From assembly GCA_001899635.1 (NCBI GenBank), contig MKVQ01000021.1:1-64000 (forward strand): a DNA stretch of 64,000 nt. The letters run 5' to 3'. The DNA comes from Myxococcales bacterium 68-20 (lineage in GTDB: Bacteria; Myxococcota_A; Polyangia; Polyangiales; Polyangiaceae). Below the pieces are notes generated by a model that worked only from the letters and a program-made list of their open reading frames with translations, had not been told where the DNA came from and made no database searches. The position numbers were made by a program, and so were the translations under genes. Below, piece by piece: positions 12,724-19,950 of this stretch. Numbering within the stretch: the stretch's first letter is position 1; each line of letters starts with the position of its first letter.

Positions 12724-13113
12724 TCAGGTCTTCTTCAGGTCGAGCGAGGCCGAGTTGATGCAGTAACGCAGCCCGCCACGGTCAGGCGGCCCATCCGGGA
12801 ACACGTGCCCGAGGTGAGCGCCGCACTCCGAGCACAGGACCTCGGTGCGCACCATGAAGTGCGAGCGATCTTCCTCGGTGGCGATGTTCGCCTCTACTGC
12901 GGGCTGGGTGAAGCTCGGCCATCCGCAACCGGAGTCGAACTTGTCGTCGGAGCGGAAGAGCTCTGCACCGCAGCAGACGCACTCGTACGTCCCGGCGTCG
13001 TGGCTGTCCCAATATTTCCCGGTGAAGGCGCGCTCGGTGGCCTTGTTGCGCGTGACCTCGTACTGCTCGGGGGAGAGGACGGCTTTGTACTCGGCGTCGG
13101 TCTTCTTCGGCAT
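12724..13113 (-). CDS. msrB: peptide-methionine (R)-S-oxide reductase
   Basis: A 129-residue single-domain MsrB, which reduces the R-epimer of methionine sulfoxide in proteins using thioredoxin. Two zinc-binding pairs, CVCC (45-48) and CSEC (94-97), and the catalytic Cys118 in [10 protein letters not shown] are present, together with SGCGWPSF and [10 protein letters not shown]. No signal peptide, so cytoplasmic. No msrA is in the window. It lies 84 bases beyond the end of the four-gene operon on the same strand but is probably separate. Confidence 0.96.
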
Positions 13114-13197: not shown

Positions 13198-14229
13198 TCA
13201 GCCGCTGCTTCCGCCTCGACTGCCGCCGCTGCCTGGACCGACCACCCAGTGATAGCCCGGGTAGATGAACGGCCGCCCGAACGCGAGGCCGAAGCCGCCC
13301 CGGGCGCGCGCATAGAAGTAGGGATCGTCGACGAGGGTGTAGCGCTCGCGGACCCAATAGCCGCGCGGCGCCAGCCTCGCTGCCCAATCGACCGGCCATG
13401 CGCCGGCGACCGGCGCGGGCGCAGCCTTCAGGAACGCGAGGTCGACGATGAAGATGCTGATCCCCGCGGCCTGCCAGGCGCGGAAGCTCGCGTTCAGATC
13501 GTCTTCCTCGACCTCGGCGTCGTCGAGGTCCTCGACGACGTAGACGACGCGCGTGATGTGCCGCGCGCGAAGCGTCTCGACGTCGGGCAGATCGCCCGGC
13601 ATCAGCATGTAGCGGTTGTCGAACGTCTCGTCGTCCGGAGTGTCGAAGCGATACGCGAGGCGCCACGAGTCGAGGAGGAACACGGGATGCGCGCTCTCGA
13701 GCGCGGCTCGCTCGGGCGGCGGCAGCCGCGGAGGAAACGCGAGCAGCCCGGCGAGCGTCTCGTCCGCGGGAACGACCGAGTCGTGGGCAGGCCAGTTGTT
13801 GAACGTGACGACTGGCGCGATCGGCTCGCGCGAGTCGCGGCTCAGACGCGAGGCGAACGCCGCCGAAGCCGCGCCGCGGAGGTCGACGAGCCACAAGGTG
13901 TCGGCCGGCAGTCCGACCCGAGCGACGTGCGCCGCCGCGGCATCGGCCTCCGCGGCGACCTCGAGGCGCCGCACGTCGGGGAGCGCGGCATGCCCGGCCA
14001 TCGGATCGACCGACGAGATGAGCGTGCCCTTGTGGTAGCGCGCCCAGGGGCTCTCCGGAGCCATCTGCCAGCGCGCCGCGAGCTCCGACGAAGACGGTAG
14101 GGCGAAGTCACGCCTGTCCGGCACGTCCTCCGACCAGAACGCGACGCTCACGGAAGGCGTCCACGGACGCAGCCCGCAGCCGGTGACGCCGACGAGCGCG
14201 ACGGGAATGATGCCGATCCGCGCTCTCAA
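13198..14229 (-). CDS. hypothetical lipoprotein, last gene of a four-gene coupled operon
   Basis: I place the start at the TTG at 14229, which overlaps the stop of the upstream gene as TTGA; the frame is open far upstream, but that part is an antisense shadow. This gives 343 residues beginning with a short basic and hydrophobic stretch and a lipobox-like VGVTGC, so it is probably a lipoprotein. The body has no family I recognise. Notable features are LWLVDLRGAASAA, VVTFNNWPAHDS, VFLLDSWRLAYR, VYVVEDLDDAEVEEDDLNAS and a C-terminal Tyr/Gly stretch ending GPGSGGSRGGSSG. Alternating hydrophobic strands and helices suggest a globular alpha/beta fold. Tight coupling to the ATP-grasp gene implies a shared task. 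Confidence 0.7.
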   Translation of the reverse strand: MRARIGIIPVALVGVTGCGLRPWTPSVSVAFWSEDVPDRRDFALPSSSELAARWQMAPESPWARYHKGTLISSVDPMAGHAALPDVRRLEVAAEADAAAAHVARVGLPADTLWLVDLRGAASAAFASRLSRDSREPIAPVVTFNNWPAHDSVVPADETLAGLLAFPPRLPPPERAALESAHPVFLLDSWRLAYRFDTPDDETFDNRYMLMPGDLPDVETLRARHITRVVYVVEDLDDAEVEEDDLNASFRAWQAAGISIFIVDLAFLKAAPAPVAGAWPVDWAARLAPRGYWVRERYTLVDDPYFYARARGGFGLAFGRPFIYPGYHWVVGPGSGGSRGGSSG

Positions 14230-15650
14230 AGGCCGGCCTCCGCGCCGCTCGCGCTGGCCGCCGGTGCGAGCTCGGTGTCCTCGACGAACACGGGCAAGAC
14301 GAGCGCGTCGTGCGAGCAGTGCGACGTCGGCGAGAGCCGCGCGAAGTACCCGGCGAACACGCCGTCGAGCAAATAGACACCGAGCGTGACGAGGCGCGGC
14401 CCCCACGGGGTGGCGAGTGACGCTTGCGGGACGAAGCGTTGCGCGATCCACACCTGTCCGGTCGGCGAGCCCGGGCCCGCCTTCCCTCCCCCGAGATCGG
14501 TGGCCCGCCCCCGTGACGTACCGCCGTCGTCGGTATCGACGGAGGCGACCTCCTCGAGGATGTCGCGGAAGTCCTCCGGCGTCGTGAGCGCGCCGACGAA
14601 GACGTGATCGCCGACGCGCGAGAGATCGCGCTTCACCACCCACGACTCGCGCTCGGCCGCGAGCCGCTCGCGAGGTACATCCGCGAACGCAAACGTCTCG
14701 GCGAAGACCTCGGCAGCTGCCGCCGGATCGTGCGCGAACGCCCGCGCCATCGCGAGCTTCGACTGCGCGTGGATGCACGAGAAGCTCGACATCGACGCGA
14801 GCGCTCCCTTCTCCGTCGCGCGCACGAGCACGTCGATGTTCTTCTGTCCGGCCATCCATTCGACTGGATAGAAGCGATAGAGTGAAGCGACGCGCTGCGC
14901 CCCGGTCGGCGTGCGGACCGCGACGCCCTCCCCATCGTCGGCCGCGAAGAGCGCGGTTGGCGGGACGCGGACGGCGCGACCGCCGCGCTCGACGACGAGC
15001 CGCTCGAGGAGCGCGCAGACCTGGAGGTCCTCCGCGTATGCAGTCGCGTACGCGAGCGCAACGACCCCACGCGGCGAGCCGGGACCACCCGATCGCTCGA
15101 CGAGTCGATCAGCGAGCCACCCGGCGACGTGCGTCGGATCGCGGAGCGCTCGTCGCGAGGTCGCGCCCGACGCCGTGTCGCGCAGCGCGCCGAGACGAAG
15201 ACCTGCGGCGCGCGCGAGGCGCGGGAGCGCGAGCGTCTCGTTGTAGCCGCCCGGACAGTCCGCGTTCACCTCACAAGCGACGAAACGCCCGTCCTCCCGG
15301 AGCAGCAGGTCGACGCGAGCGACGGAGCCGGAGTCCCCGCCCGCACGTGCTGCCGCGGCGAGGCGCTCGACGTCGGGATGAAGGCGATAGCGCGCCCGCT
15401 CGGTCGGATCGGACGCGGCCCGCTCGGCGGCGGCGGAGACGAGCGACCACGCGCGCTCGGCGACATGAATCGCGTCACGATGCGCCGCGCTCGAGAGAAT
15501 GAACGGATGCAAGTCCACCCGGCGCCGGCCGGAGGTCCATGCGTCCCAGACGAGCCACTCGTGCTGCAACGCCCGCTCGAGCGACGGGAGCCGAAGCGGA
15601 TCGGCCACCGCCAGCGGCTCGACCCGCGCGCGGAGAGCGACGGCGGTCAA
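14226..15650 (-). CDS. glutathionylspermidine-synthase-like ATP-grasp protein
   Basis: Start set at the TTG at 15650, overlapping the upstream stop as TTGA, giving 474 residues; the long frame before it is antisense shadow. Features match the glutathionylspermidine synthase/YgiC group of C-N ligases: VACEVNADCPGGYNETLALP (compare EYNADTP in the family), LYRFYPVEWM, then a nucleotide-binding stretch WVVKRDLSRVGDHVF and C-terminal VWIAQRFVPQ with LVTLGVYLLDGVFAGYFAR. Such enzymes join an amine to a peptide carboxylate with ATP. No amidase domain is fused. No signal peptide, so it acts in the cytoplasm while its operon partners are exported. The substrate is unknown; catalytic competence should be checked because the Lys-rich loop differs from the classic form. 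Confidence 0.7.
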   Translation of the reverse strand: MTAVALRARVEPLAVADPLRLPSLERALQHEWLVWDAWTSGRRRVDLHPFILSSAAHRDAIHVAERAWSLVSAAAERAASDPTERARYRLHPDVERLAAAARAGGDSGSVARVDLLLREDGRFVACEVNADCPGGYNETLALPRLARAAGLRLGALRDTASGATSRRALRDPTHVAGWLADRLVERSGGPGSPRGVVALAYATAYAEDLQVCALLERLVVERGGRAVRVPPTALFAADDGEGVAVRTPTGAQRVASLYRFYPVEWMAGQKNIDVLVRATEKGALASMSSFSCIHAQSKLAMARAFAHDPAAAAEVFAETFAFADVPRERLAAERESWVVKRDLSRVGDHVFVGALTTPEDFRDILEEVASVDTDDGGTSRGRATDLGGGKAGPGSPTGQVWIAQRFVPQASLATPWGPRLVTLGVYLLDGVFAGYFARLSPTSHCSHDALVLPVFVEDTELAPAASASGAEAGL

Positions 15651-16744
15651 CGCATCCTCGCGGCGAGGCGCTCGAACAGCGCCGGATCCTCGGCGCCGAG
15701 ACCGTAGAAGAGGACACCGACGTCCAGCGGGAGCACGTCGCTGCTCCACGCGCCGAGCGCGCGGGCGGTCGACTCCGCATCGTCGAACCAGAGCTCGTGC
15801 GACTCGCCACCGAACGCCCGGTAGCGAAGGAACGGAGCTCCGGTCGGGCCACGCTCGATCGGAGCGCGCGCGATCGTCGAGATGGCGATCGCGTCGTGGT
15901 AGACGACCGGCCGCCTCCCACGCGGGCCGAAGTCCGTCCCGTAGAGCGGATACGAGACATCGACGTTCGGAAAGTCGTCCTTCGCGAGGCGCACCGCGTC
16001 GACGGCCCACCCCGGATCGATCGTCGGCCCAGGATCGCGCTCCGAGTAGTCGAGCGTCATGATGCGCATCCGGTCGACGAGTGGAGCGAGCTCGCGGCGA
16101 GAGAAGGCATCGCCGCCGGGAAGATCGCTCGGAACCGTCACCGACGGAGGGACGAACACGCCCAGCCGGCGCGTCGGACGGACGACCTCCGCGAGCTCGG
16201 CGACGAGCGCAGTGACGAACGGGCGCGCGTCGTTCGAGAGCGACTGCAGATCGATCTCGACACCGTCAGCCGGTTCGATCACGAGCGGCAGCGTCTCCTT
16301 CACGCGCTGCCTCCACGCCGGGTCCCGGAGGAACGCCTGCGTCTGCGCGCCGTCGTAGCGCTGACCGCTCTCGTCGGTGAACGCGATCCCGAAGTGAACC
16401 CGGTAGCCATCGCGCTTCAGCTCCTCGGTCAGCGCCGCCAGAGCGGCGCGGGAGCTCTGATCGCGCGGGCCGACCGTCCCGTCCGCGCGCGGGACGAGGC
16501 AGAGCATGATCACCTCACCCCCGCGGAGGACACGCTTCGCTCCCGCGCTCGCAAGGGTGGAGCGCGACCAGGTGTCGAGCACGCAGCCATCGACGACGAC
16601 CGACGCCATCCGCGCGGGCAGAGCCGTCTCGGCGCGAAGGCCGACCACCTCTCGCTCGCTCCCCGAATCGGAGCCGCACCCCGCAAGGGCAACGAGTGAG
16701 AGCGCGACGCTCGCTGCGAGCCCGAAGATCCTCTCGACCGTCAT
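15647..16744 (-). CDS. lipoprotein with GH18-like (chitinase-fold) domain
   Basis: The ATG at 16744 overlaps the stop of the upstream gene as ATGA. The 365-residue product has a signal peptide with lipobox VALAGC (Cys about 23). The body resembles glycoside hydrolase family 18 barrels of the spore-germination/chitinase type: a conserved strand DGVEIDLQSL around residue 167 where active enzymes have DGxDxDxE, a later strand MRIMTLDYS and VDVSYPLYGTDF. The catalytic Glu position is Gln here, and the middle Asp is Glu, so hydrolysis is doubtful and a sugar-binding role is possible. Coupled to the ATP-grasp gene downstream. Fold assignment is from motifs only. Confidence 0.6.
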   Translation of the reverse strand: MTVERIFGLAASVALSLVALAGCGSDSGSEREVVGLRAETALPARMASVVVDGCVLDTWSRSTLASAGAKRVLRGGEVIMLCLVPRADGTVGPRDQSSRAALAALTEELKRDGYRVHFGIAFTDESGQRYDGAQTQAFLRDPAWRQRVKETLPLVIEPADGVEIDLQSLSNDARPFVTALVAELAEVVRPTRRLGVFVPPSVTVPSDLPGGDAFSRRELAPLVDRMRIMTLDYSERDPGPTIDPGWAVDAVRLAKDDFPNVDVSYPLYGTDFGPRGRRPVVYHDAIAISTIARAPIERGPTGAPFLRYRAFGGESHELWFDDAESTARALGAWSSDVLPLDVGVLFYGLGAEDPALFERLAARMR

Positions 16745-17430
16745 CGTCCCCCCTCGAAGCGCAGACCGAACGTCACGCCGTTGAAGAGCTCGTGCTCGTA
16801 GAGCCGTGGGACCACCTGCAAGCAGACACGAGTCGACGGGTCCAGGCGCCGACATCCCTCGAGCTCGAGCTGGACGAGGAACGTCGCCGCGTCGAGCTCG
16901 AGCGGCACCGTCTCGGTCCCCGCAGCGACGCTCCCGCCCATCGTGGCGAAGGAGACGCCGGTGCGGACCGCCGCGGCCCACATGTTTCGGCGATGCTTCC
17001 AGCGATGTCCCACGCCGGGAAGGAGGAGATCCCCGCGGATGGTCGACCAGGGACGCAGGCGCGCGATCGAGCCGTCGTGGCTCGTGATGATCGCGTCGTA
17101 GGACCCGATCGCCCAGAACGCATTGCCGCCGAAGAGGGGGACCTTCCACCGGTCGTCGACCGTGAGCTCGACGTCGGCGCCGAGGCCCATCATCGCGAGG
17201 CCGCCGGCCGTCCGGATTCGCCCATCGGCGAGCTCGCGCGCGCTCGTCGTGACCTCCTTGGCCCCGAACGACGGCATCTGACGAAGCCAGGCGCCGCTCA
17301 CGTGCGTCGCGATCTGGAAGTCGGTGTCCGCACGCGCGTCCTGCGAGACGAGGCACATGGGAGCGACGAGCATCCCCACCACCGCCCAGGCCCGTCGCTT
17401 CGTCACCGAGCTCGCTCTGCCGGTCCGCAT
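16741..17430 (-). CDS. exported hypothetical protein (possible beta-rich outer-membrane protein)
   Basis: The ATG at 17430 is preceded by a good ribosome site (GGGGAGCG) and begins a signal peptide that ends at ARA (about residue 32); upstream in-frame codons look non-coding. The 229-residue product has alternating strands with Gly and aromatic residues (GGLAMMGLGADVELTVDDRW, YEHELFNGVTFGLRFEGGR) and ends in an aromatic/basic strand, which suggests a small outer-membrane barrel or periplasmic beta protein. One Cys pair may form a disulfide. It is the first gene of a four-gene operon whose members overlap by 4 bases each. No family recognised. Confidence 0.7.
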   Translation of the reverse strand: MRTGRASSVTKRRAWAVVGMLVAPMCLVSQDARADTDFQIATHVSGAWLRQMPSFGAKEVTTSARELADGRIRTAGGLAMMGLGADVELTVDDRWKVPLFGGNAFWAIGSYDAIITSHDGSIARLRPWSTIRGDLLLPGVGHRWKHRRNMWAAAVRTGVSFATMGGSVAAGTETVPLELDAATFLVQLELEGCRRLDPSTRVCLQVVPRLYEHELFNGVTFGLRFEGGR

Positions 17431-17740: not shown

Positions 17741-19252
17741 GTGACCCGGTGTCGTGTCCTCTTCCTCGCGCTCGTCGTGGCCGTCGTCGGCCTCCTCGGG
17801 CTCGTCGCGTGTGGCCGGACGACGCCGGTGAGTGGGCTCGCCCGCATCCGCGCGGCGGGGGTCATCAAGTGGGGCGGCGACATCCAGGGCGGTGAGCCGT
17901 ACGTCTACGGCGATCCGAAGAGCCCCGATCGACTGATCGGATTCGAGGTGGAGATCGCCGACGCGATCGCGAGAGAGCTCGGCGTGCGCGCGGAGTTCGT
18001 ACAGAACGACTGGGCGAACCTCGTACCGTCGCTCGAACGCGGCAGCTTCGACATCGTCATGAATGGCCTCGAGGTGACCGAGGCTCGCGTGGGCAGGGTG
18101 CGCTTCACGCGTCCGTACTGTGTCTTCACGGAGCGCCTCATGGCGCGCGCAGGCAACGCGTCGATCGCGCCCGACCTCCTTGCTCTCCGCGGAAAGAAGG
18201 TCGGGACGCTCGCGAACAGCCTCGCGTTCGAGATGTTGCGCGGGACCGCGACTCCTGTCGTCTACGACGGTGTCGAGGAGCCGTACCTCGATCTCGTCAA
18301 CGGACGGACCGATGCCGTCCTCCTCGACGACATCATCGCGACCCGCTACGGCGCTCCGAGGCCCGAGCTCCAGGTGGTCGGCGACCTCCGCGAGGGCTAC
18401 TACGCGATCGCGGTCCGGCCTTCCGACCCCGACCTCGCGGCCGCCATCGACGACGCGATCGGCGCGATCGCCGCACGCGGCGAGCTCCGGCGCATCCTCG
18501 AGAGGAGCCATCTCTGGAACGACCGCCAGGACAGGCTCATCGGCTGGACGGCGGCCGATCAGACGCGGATGCTCGGAGCGCCGCGGTCTCCCCCGCCGAT
18601 CGAGCGTGGGCACGTCATGCTCTTCCTCCGCGGCGCCGGCGTGACGCTCCTCGTCTCGACGCTCGCGATGGCGCTGGCGATACCGCTCGGGCTCCTCCTC
18701 TCGCTCGCTCGTCTCCATGGCGGCCCGGTGCTCGCTCGCCTCGCGGGCGCGTACGTCGAGATCTATCGCGGTACCCCGGTCCTCCTGCAGCTCTACCTCT
18801 TGTATTACGGGCTCGCTCCCGTCCTGAAGCTCGGCGCGCTCCCCGCCGCCGTCATCGGCCTCGGGATGAACTACGCGGCCTATGAGGCCGAGGTGTATCG
18901 CGCCGGCATCCAGGCCGTGCCGAAGGCGCAGATCGAGTCGGCGCTCGCGCTCGGCATGTCCACGCGGCTGGCGCTCCGGCGGGTCGTGCTCCCGCAGGCG
19001 CTCCGGCACGCGATCCCCAACGTGACGAACGACTTCATCGCGCTCCTCAAGGACAGCTCGCTCGTGAGCGTGATCACGGTCGTCGAGCTGACGAAGCAGA
19101 TGACGATCACCGCCGTCGACGTGCGGAGCTGGATCGGTCCGGGGCTCCTCTGCGCCGGCCTCTACTTCGCGATGAGCTACCCGCTCGGGCGGATCGCGCG
19201 GCGACTCGAGAAGAAGCTCGAGGGCGAGCGGGAAGCCGAGGCCGCGACATGA
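17741..19252 (+). CDS. amino-acid ABC transporter, fused binding protein and permease
   Basis: A 503-residue fusion. Residues 1-25 are a lipoprotein-like signal (lipobox LGLVAC) or uncleaved anchor. Residues about 35-285 are a family-3 periplasmic binding domain (IGFEVEIADAIARELG, FDIVMNGLEVTEAR, VLLDDIIA, YYAIAVRP). Residues about 300-495 are a HisM/GlnP-type permease with VEIYRGTPVLLQL, NYAAYEAEVYRAGI and the EAA loop around ALALGMSTRLALRRVVLPQAL. Fused polar-amino-acid transporters of this kind exist in several phyla. The GTG start follows a TAGGA. The ATPase gene begins inside its stop codon (ATGA), so the two form a complete importer. Confidence 0.93.
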   Translation: MTRCRVLFLALVVAVVGLLGLVACGRTTPVSGLARIRAAGVIKWGGDIQGGEPYVYGDPKSPDRLIGFEVEIADAIARELGVRAEFVQNDWANLVPSLERGSFDIVMNGLEVTEARVGRVRFTRPYCVFTERLMARAGNASIAPDLLALRGKKVGTLANSLAFEMLRGTATPVVYDGVEEPYLDLVNGRTDAVLLDDIIATRYGAPRPELQVVGDLREGYYAIAVRPSDPDLAAAIDDAIGAIAARGELRRILERSHLWNDRQDRLIGWTAADQTRMLGAPRSPPPIERGHVMLFLRGAGVTLLVSTLAMALAIPLGLLLSLARLHGGPVLARLAGAYVEIYRGTPVLLQLYLLYYGLAPVLKLGALPAAVIGLGMNYAAYEAEVYRAGIQAVPKAQIESALALGMSTRLALRRVVLPQALRHAIPNVTNDFIALLKDSSLVSVITVVELTKQMTITAVDVRSWIGPGLLCAGLYFAMSYPLGRIARRLEKKLEGEREAEAAT

Positions 19253-19950
19253 TCGTCGTCGATAACGTCGAGAAGGCATTCGAGTCCCGCGTCGTCCTCG
19301 ACGGAGTCAGCGTCCGCTTCGACCGCGGCAAGGTCTCGGCGCTCGTCGGCCCCTCGGGCGGCGGCAAGTCGACGCTCCTCCGCTGCATCAACGGGCTCGA
19401 GCGCTTCGACGCCGGGCGCATCGAGGTCGACGGCCTCGTCCTCGGACCGAGCAAGACGGACCGCCCGAGCCGTGCCGACCGCGCAACGCTCCGCGCGATC
19501 CGGCTCAAGGCCGGCATGGTCTTCCAGCACTACGGCCTCTTCTCGCACATGAGCGCGCTCGAGAACGTGATGGAGGCGCCCATCCACGTCCGCGGCGTCG
19601 CTCCTGCGGTGGCCCGCGAGCGCGCCAAGCTCCTTCTCGCTCAGGTCGGCCTTCCGCATCGCCGCAATGCCTTTCCACGCGAGCTCTCCGGCGGCGAGCA
19701 ACAGCGCGTCGCGATCGCGCGAGCCCTCGCGATGGATCCCGAGGCACTGCTCCTCGACGAGCCGACGAGCGCGCTCGATCCCGAGCGAAAGGCGGAGGTG
19801 GTCGGCGTGCTCCGCGATCTGGCCAAGCAAGGCGCGACGATGATCATCGTCACCCACGAGGCCGCCGTGGTGCGGGAGATCGCCGACCATGCGATCTGCC
19901 TCCGCGACGGCAAGGTCGTCGCCGCAGGCTCCCCCTCCGAGGTGCTCTGA
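19249..19950 (+). CDS. polar amino-acid ABC transporter ATP-binding protein (GlnQ type)
   Basis: A 233-residue ATPase subunit. Walker A GPSGGGKST (34-42), Q-loop in FQHYGLFSHMSALENV, signature LSGGEQQRVAIARAL, Walker B LLLDEPTSALD and the switch His in IIVTHE are all present. It is closest in style to GlnQ/HisP ATPases that energise uptake of polar amino acids, in keeping with the upstream binding-protein/permease fusion, which it overlaps by four bases. Slightly shorter than the usual 240-250 residues. Confidence 0.95.
   Translation: MIVVDNVEKAFESRVVLDGVSVRFDRGKVSALVGPSGGGKSTLLRCINGLERFDAGRIEVDGLVLGPSKTDRPSRADRATLRAIRLKAGMVFQHYGLFSHMSALENVMEAPIHVRGVAPAVARERAKLLLAQVGLPHRRNAFPRELSGGEQQRVAIARALAMDPEALLLDEPTSALDPERKAEVVGVLRDLAKQGATMIIVTHEAAVVREIADHAICLRDGKVVAAGSPSEVL

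Follow-up and report, generated by a model that had tools for sequence, protein, structure and literature searches.

The closest described relatives of the locus discussed here are the E. coli gene pairs for YgiB-YgiC and YjfM-YjfC, in which the gene of a DUF1190 protein with an RGG[FY]G...GG tail lies directly before the gene of its YgiC-fold ATP-grasp ligase (YgiB ends TRGGFG...SMGG and YjfM ends SRGGYG...HWGG), and in which a DUF350 protein, YjfL, is encoded beside YjfM. The RefSeq name of both YgiC and YjfC is peptide--spermidine ligase, with PMID 36745518 as the cited source. Operons linked to the phage shock protein (PSP) system have also been described that combine an ATP-grasp enzyme, a DUF350 protein and a DUF1190 lipoprotein, and in the portion of that paper covered here its authors propose a link between polyamines and envelope stress (PMC11237479). 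We compare these systems with a four-gene operon in a 64,000-nucleotide stretch of Myxococcales bacterium 68-20 (contig MKVQ01000021.1, positions 1 to 64,000; hereafter the window), which encodes in order an exported protein (A), a lipoprotein with a GH18-type domain (B), an ATP-grasp ligase (C) and a second lipoprotein (D). As in the E. coli pairs, a YgiC-type ligase gene adjoins the gene of a tailed protein; unlike them, the window operon has its ligase gene ahead of the lipoprotein gene, its D is without detected DUF1190 similarity, it has no DUF350 or PspA gene, and it has gained the exported A and the GH18-like B. With the PSP-linked operons it has in common that a Gss-related ATP-grasp gene accompanies lipoprotein genes, and it differs in that genes for PspA, CesT and a K+ channel are absent; neither the tail motif nor a lipoprotein as substrate is mentioned in the covered portion of PMC11237479. 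An earlier note on this DNA knew of no described system with this set: the four genes together were indeed not found in the literature searched, whereas operons joining ATP-grasp and lipoprotein genes are described in that same portion of the paper. We consider it fairly probable that D, ahead of its export, is phosphorylated by C at its C-terminal glycine and there linked to an amine.

The core of the operon is the C-D pair, ligase and second lipoprotein. With C as the query, 23 loci were found in species genomes (their titles name Labilithrix, Myxococcales, Polyangiaceae, Minicystis, Sorangium or 'Deltaproteobacteria'), and tblastn detected D beside C in 22 of them, B in 20 and A in 14; these counts are not fully independent because the set holds near-duplicates (e.g., L011/L021 and L018/L022), and two loci (L014, L016) start too near the contig end for A to be visible. 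Minicystis rosea (L013) and L020 carry the C-D pair with neither A nor B detected. The recurrence in related genomes that the earlier note had left to be checked thus held, as did the overlaps it claimed, ATGA at 16741-16744 (A/B) and TTGA at 15647-15650 (B/C) and 14226-14229 (C/D), and its description of the four overlapping minus-strand genes as an envelope operon is supported. Among the related loci, a start lies exactly 4 nucleotides inside the upstream stop in 14/14 loci having both A and B, in 18/20 for B/C (the others at +2 and +32) and in 15/22 for C/D, where four more overlap by 1 nucleotide and the remainder show spacings of +2 and +89 and one broken gene; these counts mean that such a start exists, the script having chosen the start nearest to the overlap. 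The window copies of C and D start with TTG, and their orthologues with ATG, GTG or TTG. Across Myxococcota, where a limited number of candidates was scored per genome, D-type proteins occur in 14 of 131 genomes, all among the 16/140 with a PF03738 enzyme, and at 15 of the 16 D places a gene for such an enzyme is no more than about 3 kb away, the exception (G055) having the two on different contigs; the Fisher test of this co-occurrence is approximate, as it mixes the samples of 131 and 140 genomes. Given that the core is C-D, it was there that an enzyme-substrate relation was sought.

The AlphaFold model of C (predicted local distance difference test score, pLDDT, 88.1) matches YjfC (7uk6) with a VIA Z of 34.0 over 377 residues (root-mean-square deviation 3.2) and YgiC (7uka) with a Z of 32.7, with Gss (Z 29.1) and glutathione synthetases (Z about 21-25) lower, and Foldseek gives an E value of 1.7e-15 to the YgiC/YjfC fold; C is accordingly predicted, on its model, to have that fold in full length. 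A Gss/YgiC-like ATP-grasp enzyme with intact residues, as the earlier note had it, is therefore what we find, except that the YjfC/YgiC structures are nearer to it than Gss, which makes glutathione a less favoured, though possible, acid substrate. Eleven catalytic-site positions of Gss are invariant in 43/43 aligned proteins, E. coli YgiC, YjfC and Gss included, so that the ATP-grasp residues are not missing: R316, D318, E330, N332 and E341 of Gss correspond to R112, D114, E127, N129 and E138 of C, and K498, K533, G540, Q568, G594 and R598 to K298, K340, G347, Q404, G434 and R438, positions which presumably have ATP/Mg and acyl-phosphate roles. The acidic pair E391/E392, which we take to be part of the spermidine site of Gss, is E207/D208 in C, with E or D at both positions in 43/43. 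C looks active as an enzyme. It is like Gss in its synthetase fold and catalytic residues and differs in being coupled to a protein partner and in having no amidase domain, its 474 residues aligning to the synthetase part of Gss only, with no Pfam amidase family matched. All 22 aligned C members match PF03738 at E<=1 (best 2e-15), and the orthologue in genome G047 scores 42.6 bits, over the curated cut-off. In a tree the C sequences come out as monophyletic, with support that is weak (0.41), and C plus six Myxococcota paralogues receive 0.92. The alignments omitted L022 and L023 for C, L023 for D, L008, L014 and L022 for B, and L022 for A.

The earlier note was right that the fourth protein is a second lipoprotein, and the conserved Gly-Gly tail had escaped it. 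Cys18, the lipobox cysteine of D, is invariant in 22/22 aligned homologues, and the model of the protein (pLDDT 78.8) is folded from about residue 35 to 312, with a disordered tail beyond, mostly under 50. No clear fold match for D was found in the PDB (best Foldseek E value 0.034, best VIA Z 4.0), and matches this weak are no demonstration of a new fold. The tail ends in exactly Gly-Gly in 20/21 D orthologues with a stop codon, a count that leaves out L023, whose gene runs off the contig, and L022, in which no D was found, and that includes L019. Some tens of residues before this end, GGFG occurs in 17/20 of the orthologues with a tail and [AS]GFG in the other 3/20. Among 236 other genes of these loci and the window, one has a GG end, two carry GG[FYW]G within their last 60 residues, and no gene combines the two features; in a wider background, 32/1754 open frames of >=100 residues, D genes included, end in GG. 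The last two glycine codons of D differ synonymously among orthologues, which argues that the protein sequence is what is kept. D is not a DUF1190 protein by sequence: none of 22 D members matches PF06693, and hhalign of the D profile against YgiB, a single sequence, gave a probability of 0.3. It nevertheless has what the DUF1190 proteins have, an RGG[FY]G...GG tail (ending SSG in the window) and a YgiC-type neighbour, so that D would work like a DUF1190 protein without being a member of the family. GlyGly-CTERM and MYXO-CTERM signals consist of a motif, then a transmembrane segment, then a basic end. The glycines of D are the very end of the protein, and no NCBIfam match was found, so D carries no such signal.

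The same tail stands beside other YgiC-type enzymes. A plasmid search with YgiC gave 158 records, and from 60 listed loci 16 were chosen for taxonomic spread; together with the two E. coli loci they yield 18 partners, the one in each plasmid locus picked by eye as the right-looking neighbour. A GG end is present in 12/18, R[GAQS]G[FYWL] within the last 60 residues in 14/18 (RGGFG itself in 9), and end and motif together in 11/18. The 78 other genes of the same regions, all complete annotated genes (four very short ones were omitted, and the Methylobacterium record is without annotation), include one GG end and neither R[GAQS]G[FYWL], RGGFG, nor end and motif together. When the ends were trimmed, 23 partner bodies (Brevibacillus, too short for the comparison, was left out) fell into nine blastp groups, comprising nine DUF1190-type bodies, seven D-type bodies and seven singletons; by sequence, two body types, DUF1190 and D, are clearly different, and the true number would be at least two and at most nine. 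Since the tail returns on differing bodies next to a single enzyme family, its best interpretation is as the element that the enzyme recognizes.

From the observed class of C and its observed association with D we infer a modification, and our suggestions within it are the tail as substrate, a polyamine as the amine, a timing ahead of export and the purpose of the cap. C, an ATP-grasp carboxylate-amine ligase, would recognize the RGGFG...Gly-Gly tail and use as its acid substrate the glycine at the C-terminus of D; ATP would phosphorylate the glycine carboxylate, which would then be transferred to an amine, most likely a polyamine. Coupled translation of C and D would let D be capped ahead of export, after which the capped lipoprotein would go to the envelope and join B and the exported A, where a cationic cap might keep the tail bound to anionic polymers of the envelope or provide an amine for further linkage. 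The earlier note had proposed that the enzyme makes or tethers a polyamine- or peptide-like compound: the type of ligase stands, and the substrate changes, since the conserved Gly-Gly tail suggests D itself, and not a free compound, as what is modified. LysW with LysX/ArgX, RimK and Pup-type ligation are known cases in which ATP drives ligation at the flexible C-terminus of a protein; these systems differ from ours in their ligases or chemistry, and their partners are cytosolic whereas D is a lipoprotein.

Other explanations have to be weighed against this one. C might instead make a free small amide, such as a peptide-polyamine or a relative of glutathionylspermidine, which B and D would bind, store or export, the tail of D serving as a handle. 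The product of Gss is just such a free thiol-polyamine, glutathione synthetases and the ligase Cp1B share the fold of C, and the fold of B includes carbohydrate-binding members. Against a free product, the tail is absent from the four genes that were covered next to E. coli gss, all on one side of it. A free amide would also leave unexplained why an exact Gly-Gly and an RGGFG-like motif are found on D and on DUF1190 partners, and why C and D are kept together where B is undetected, and we regard it as unlikely. Alternatively, the glycine-rich tail might be a structural linker or a surface-binding tail selected for flexibility, with C acting on something unrelated. Tails rich in Gly, Ser or His are common in surface proteins, and some partners are without the terminal GG or the motif; composition alone, however, predicts neither an exact GG in 20/21 nor the RGGFG-like motif nor its recurrence on differently built partners, which makes a mere linker quite unlikely in our judgement.

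D might also be a LysW-like carrier, on whose C-terminus C loads a building block that others elaborate before it is released or delivered to the cell surface. ArgX-LysW (3vpb, Z 9.5) and LysX/ArgX (5k2m, Z 9.2) are among the structural matches of C, and a disordered tail with a near-constant end would fit a carrier. Those matches, however, span residues ~190-458 of C only and lie far below YjfC, the operon has no evident enzyme for elaboration or release, and a lipobox is found in 22/22 aligned D homologues; a carrier role thus appears very unlikely to us. The capping of the D tail by C remains the reading that we prefer.

Several observations nonetheless weigh against capping. C has no visible signal peptide and D is exported, so the modification must precede translocation, and YgiC and YgiB pose the same topological difficulty. 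D, YgiB and YjfM are candidate substrates, put forward from their sequences. The window C scores 17.7 bits against PF03738, below the curated cut-off of 29.3. The C profile finds 19/131 genomes positive, 13 with D and six without; four of these six match at E 3e-5 or weaker, the others being G145 (5e-19) and G149 (1e-11). The window D itself ends GGSSG, that is Ser-Gly, where its near relative in L008 has GGSGG, and the one exception to the Gly-Gly end, L019, has no tail, its frame closing at a TAG 32 bases from the contig end. In the same genome, the paralogous D of a second ligase operon (L049) ends RSGSWNRTTGTSSGS, i.e., ...SSGS and not GG. The partner counts are favourable ones, owing to the choice by eye. 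Six of the 18 partners have ends other than GG (Sphingomonas, Pseudarthrobacter, Asticcacaulis with CCG, Brevibacillus, Trichormus and Azospirillum) and four are without the motif (Azospirillum, Brevibacillus, Trichormus and B. subtilis, the last with a GG end); Azospirillum has neither tail nor partner, and the Roseomonas partner is not adjacent to the ligase, from which a second ligase gene and a DUF350 gene separate it. The trimmed bodies of A. baumannii, Sphingomonas, B. subtilis and Deinococcus comprise 31-49 residues, so blastp cannot show those four to be unrelated, and the A. baumannii partner has a weak DUF1190 match.

The choice of amine belongs to the same weighing. Profile searches of the genome gave no matches to S-adenosylmethionine (AdoMet) decarboxylase or NspC, and the six matches to the SpeE profile are all below cut-off, which makes spermidine itself doubtful as the amine. 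The genome does hold an arginine decarboxylase above the curated cut-off and two genes above the cut-off of the deoxyhypusine/homospermidine synthase family. If the amine is a polyamine made by the cell, homospermidine, putrescine or agmatine would, as guesses from gene content, be better than spermidine.

As for the other two members of the operon, the earlier note had called B a GH18-like lipoprotein, and the fold stands by sequence profile (5jh8 at E 5.1e-23, 4wiw, 4s3j and YdhD, 3cz8), with the lipobox cysteine kept in 90% or more of 18 homologues; PF00704 is matched at E<=1 by 11/18 B members, the window B not among these. What does not stand is the catalytic Glu of DxxDxDxE, which in the window is Gln167 and in the 18 homologues is E in 5, Q in 5, P in 6, H in 1 and L in 1. 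We therefore set aside an active glycosidase, in view of the loss in 13/18 homologues; B more likely binds glycans than cuts them, and is probably a glycan binder. In fold it is like the GH18 proteins YdhD, the 4s3j cortical-lytic enzyme and CHID1, and it differs from them in this lost residue. A has a conserved CRR[LF]D....R.C near its C-terminus, gave no noteworthy match to Pfam, NCBIfam or PDB sequences, and is perhaps a small outer-membrane barrel. At L010 (3665-4930) and L015 (2948-4855) a different exported protein, barrel-like by eye, lies upstream of B in the place of A, and the first gene of the operon may thus be exchangeable.

Table 1. Positions in the window of the four operon genes and of the tail features of D.
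Feature	Description	Position	Strand	Remark
A	Exported protein, 229 residues	16741..17430	minus	Translation from ATG 17430; start signal-peptide-like by eye
B	Lipoprotein with GH18-type domain, 365 residues, lipobox LAGC	15647..16744	minus	
C	YjfC/YgiC-type ATP-grasp ligase, 474 residues	14226..15650	minus	No signal peptide seen by eye
D	Second lipoprotein, 343 residues, lipobox VTGC	13198..14229	minus	Folded domain plus disordered C-terminal tail
RGGFG motif of D	Residues 310-314	13288..13302	minus	
C-terminus of D	Ser-Gly-stop in the window	13198..13206	minus	Proposed site of amide formation

Around the operon (Table 1), a divergent neighbour at 17741-19252 encodes a 503-residue protein that appears by eye to be a solute-binding domain fused to an amino-acid ATP-binding cassette (ABC) permease and is followed by an ATPase gene (19249-19950), and an msrB-like gene, so judged by eye, closely follows D in the same orientation (12724-13113; 5/24 sets including the window). 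The flanking ABC transporter, peptidase-like and msrB genes are present in only 5-6/24 compared sets, window included, and are therefore taken as synteny. A scan for promoters and terminators gave no promoter-like sites and one terminator-like site, inside C, vs 1.5 expected, which is uninformative.

Related arrangements were seen elsewhere. The second ligase-type operon of the same genome (L049; contig C27, 179000-189500) has a membrane protein adjoining the ligase, DUF350-like by eye and Pfam DUF350 in its relative L059; its divergent gene is a D homologue (hhalign probability 98.7), relatives of which end RSGSWTRTGGSSFG, NRVAGGTGG and the like. The divergent side also holds an oxygenase-like protein (by eye; the relative in L055 has no Pfam match), a further gene is without Pfam match, and similar sets occur in several other Myxococcota loci. 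In another Myxococcota clade a D homologue ends MGGFG...SGGGGG. For the tail-less D of L019, and for L087, a pseudogene, a frameshift or an assembly fault are possible causes. A Roseomonas plasmid (L138, 2426-4776) and L144 carry two tandem YgiC-type ligase genes, followed by a DUF350 gene and next by the gene of a DUF1190 protein with an SRAGFG...SSGG tail. On the Pseudarthrobacter plasmid NZ_CP061722.1 (L134, 2001-2498) the partner of 165 residues ends SRGGFGGTAKGGSGS; it is annotated as a tRNA-dihydrouridine synthase, has no Pfam match and is probably misannotated.

In the literature searched we found neither a link between the tail and the ligase nor the four-gene set; outside that search, Pederick 2023 and Iyer 2009 may already propose the idea, and an earlier proposal is also possible in Sui 2012, Li 2019 and a Gss structure paper. 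If our reading is true, bacteria would attach polyamine caps to their surface lipoproteins, and no such modification was found in the literature searched. It would have a parallel in yeast, mouse and human, where SUMO is reported to be conjugated to spermidine at its C-terminus (PMC12270671). More tentatively still, we think it possible that YgiC-family enzymes carry out a widespread protein modification, placing a polyamine on the C-terminal glycine of exported partners with an RGGFG...GG-like tail on two to perhaps nine kinds of body in Pseudomonadota, Myxococcota and Deinococcota, with partial forms in Actinomycetota and Bacillota, and that the myxobacterial version would use homospermidine or agmatine together with a glycan-binding lipoprotein. 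The shared tail names candidate protein substrates for YgiC/YjfC-type ligases, including YgiB and YjfM of E. coli K-12.

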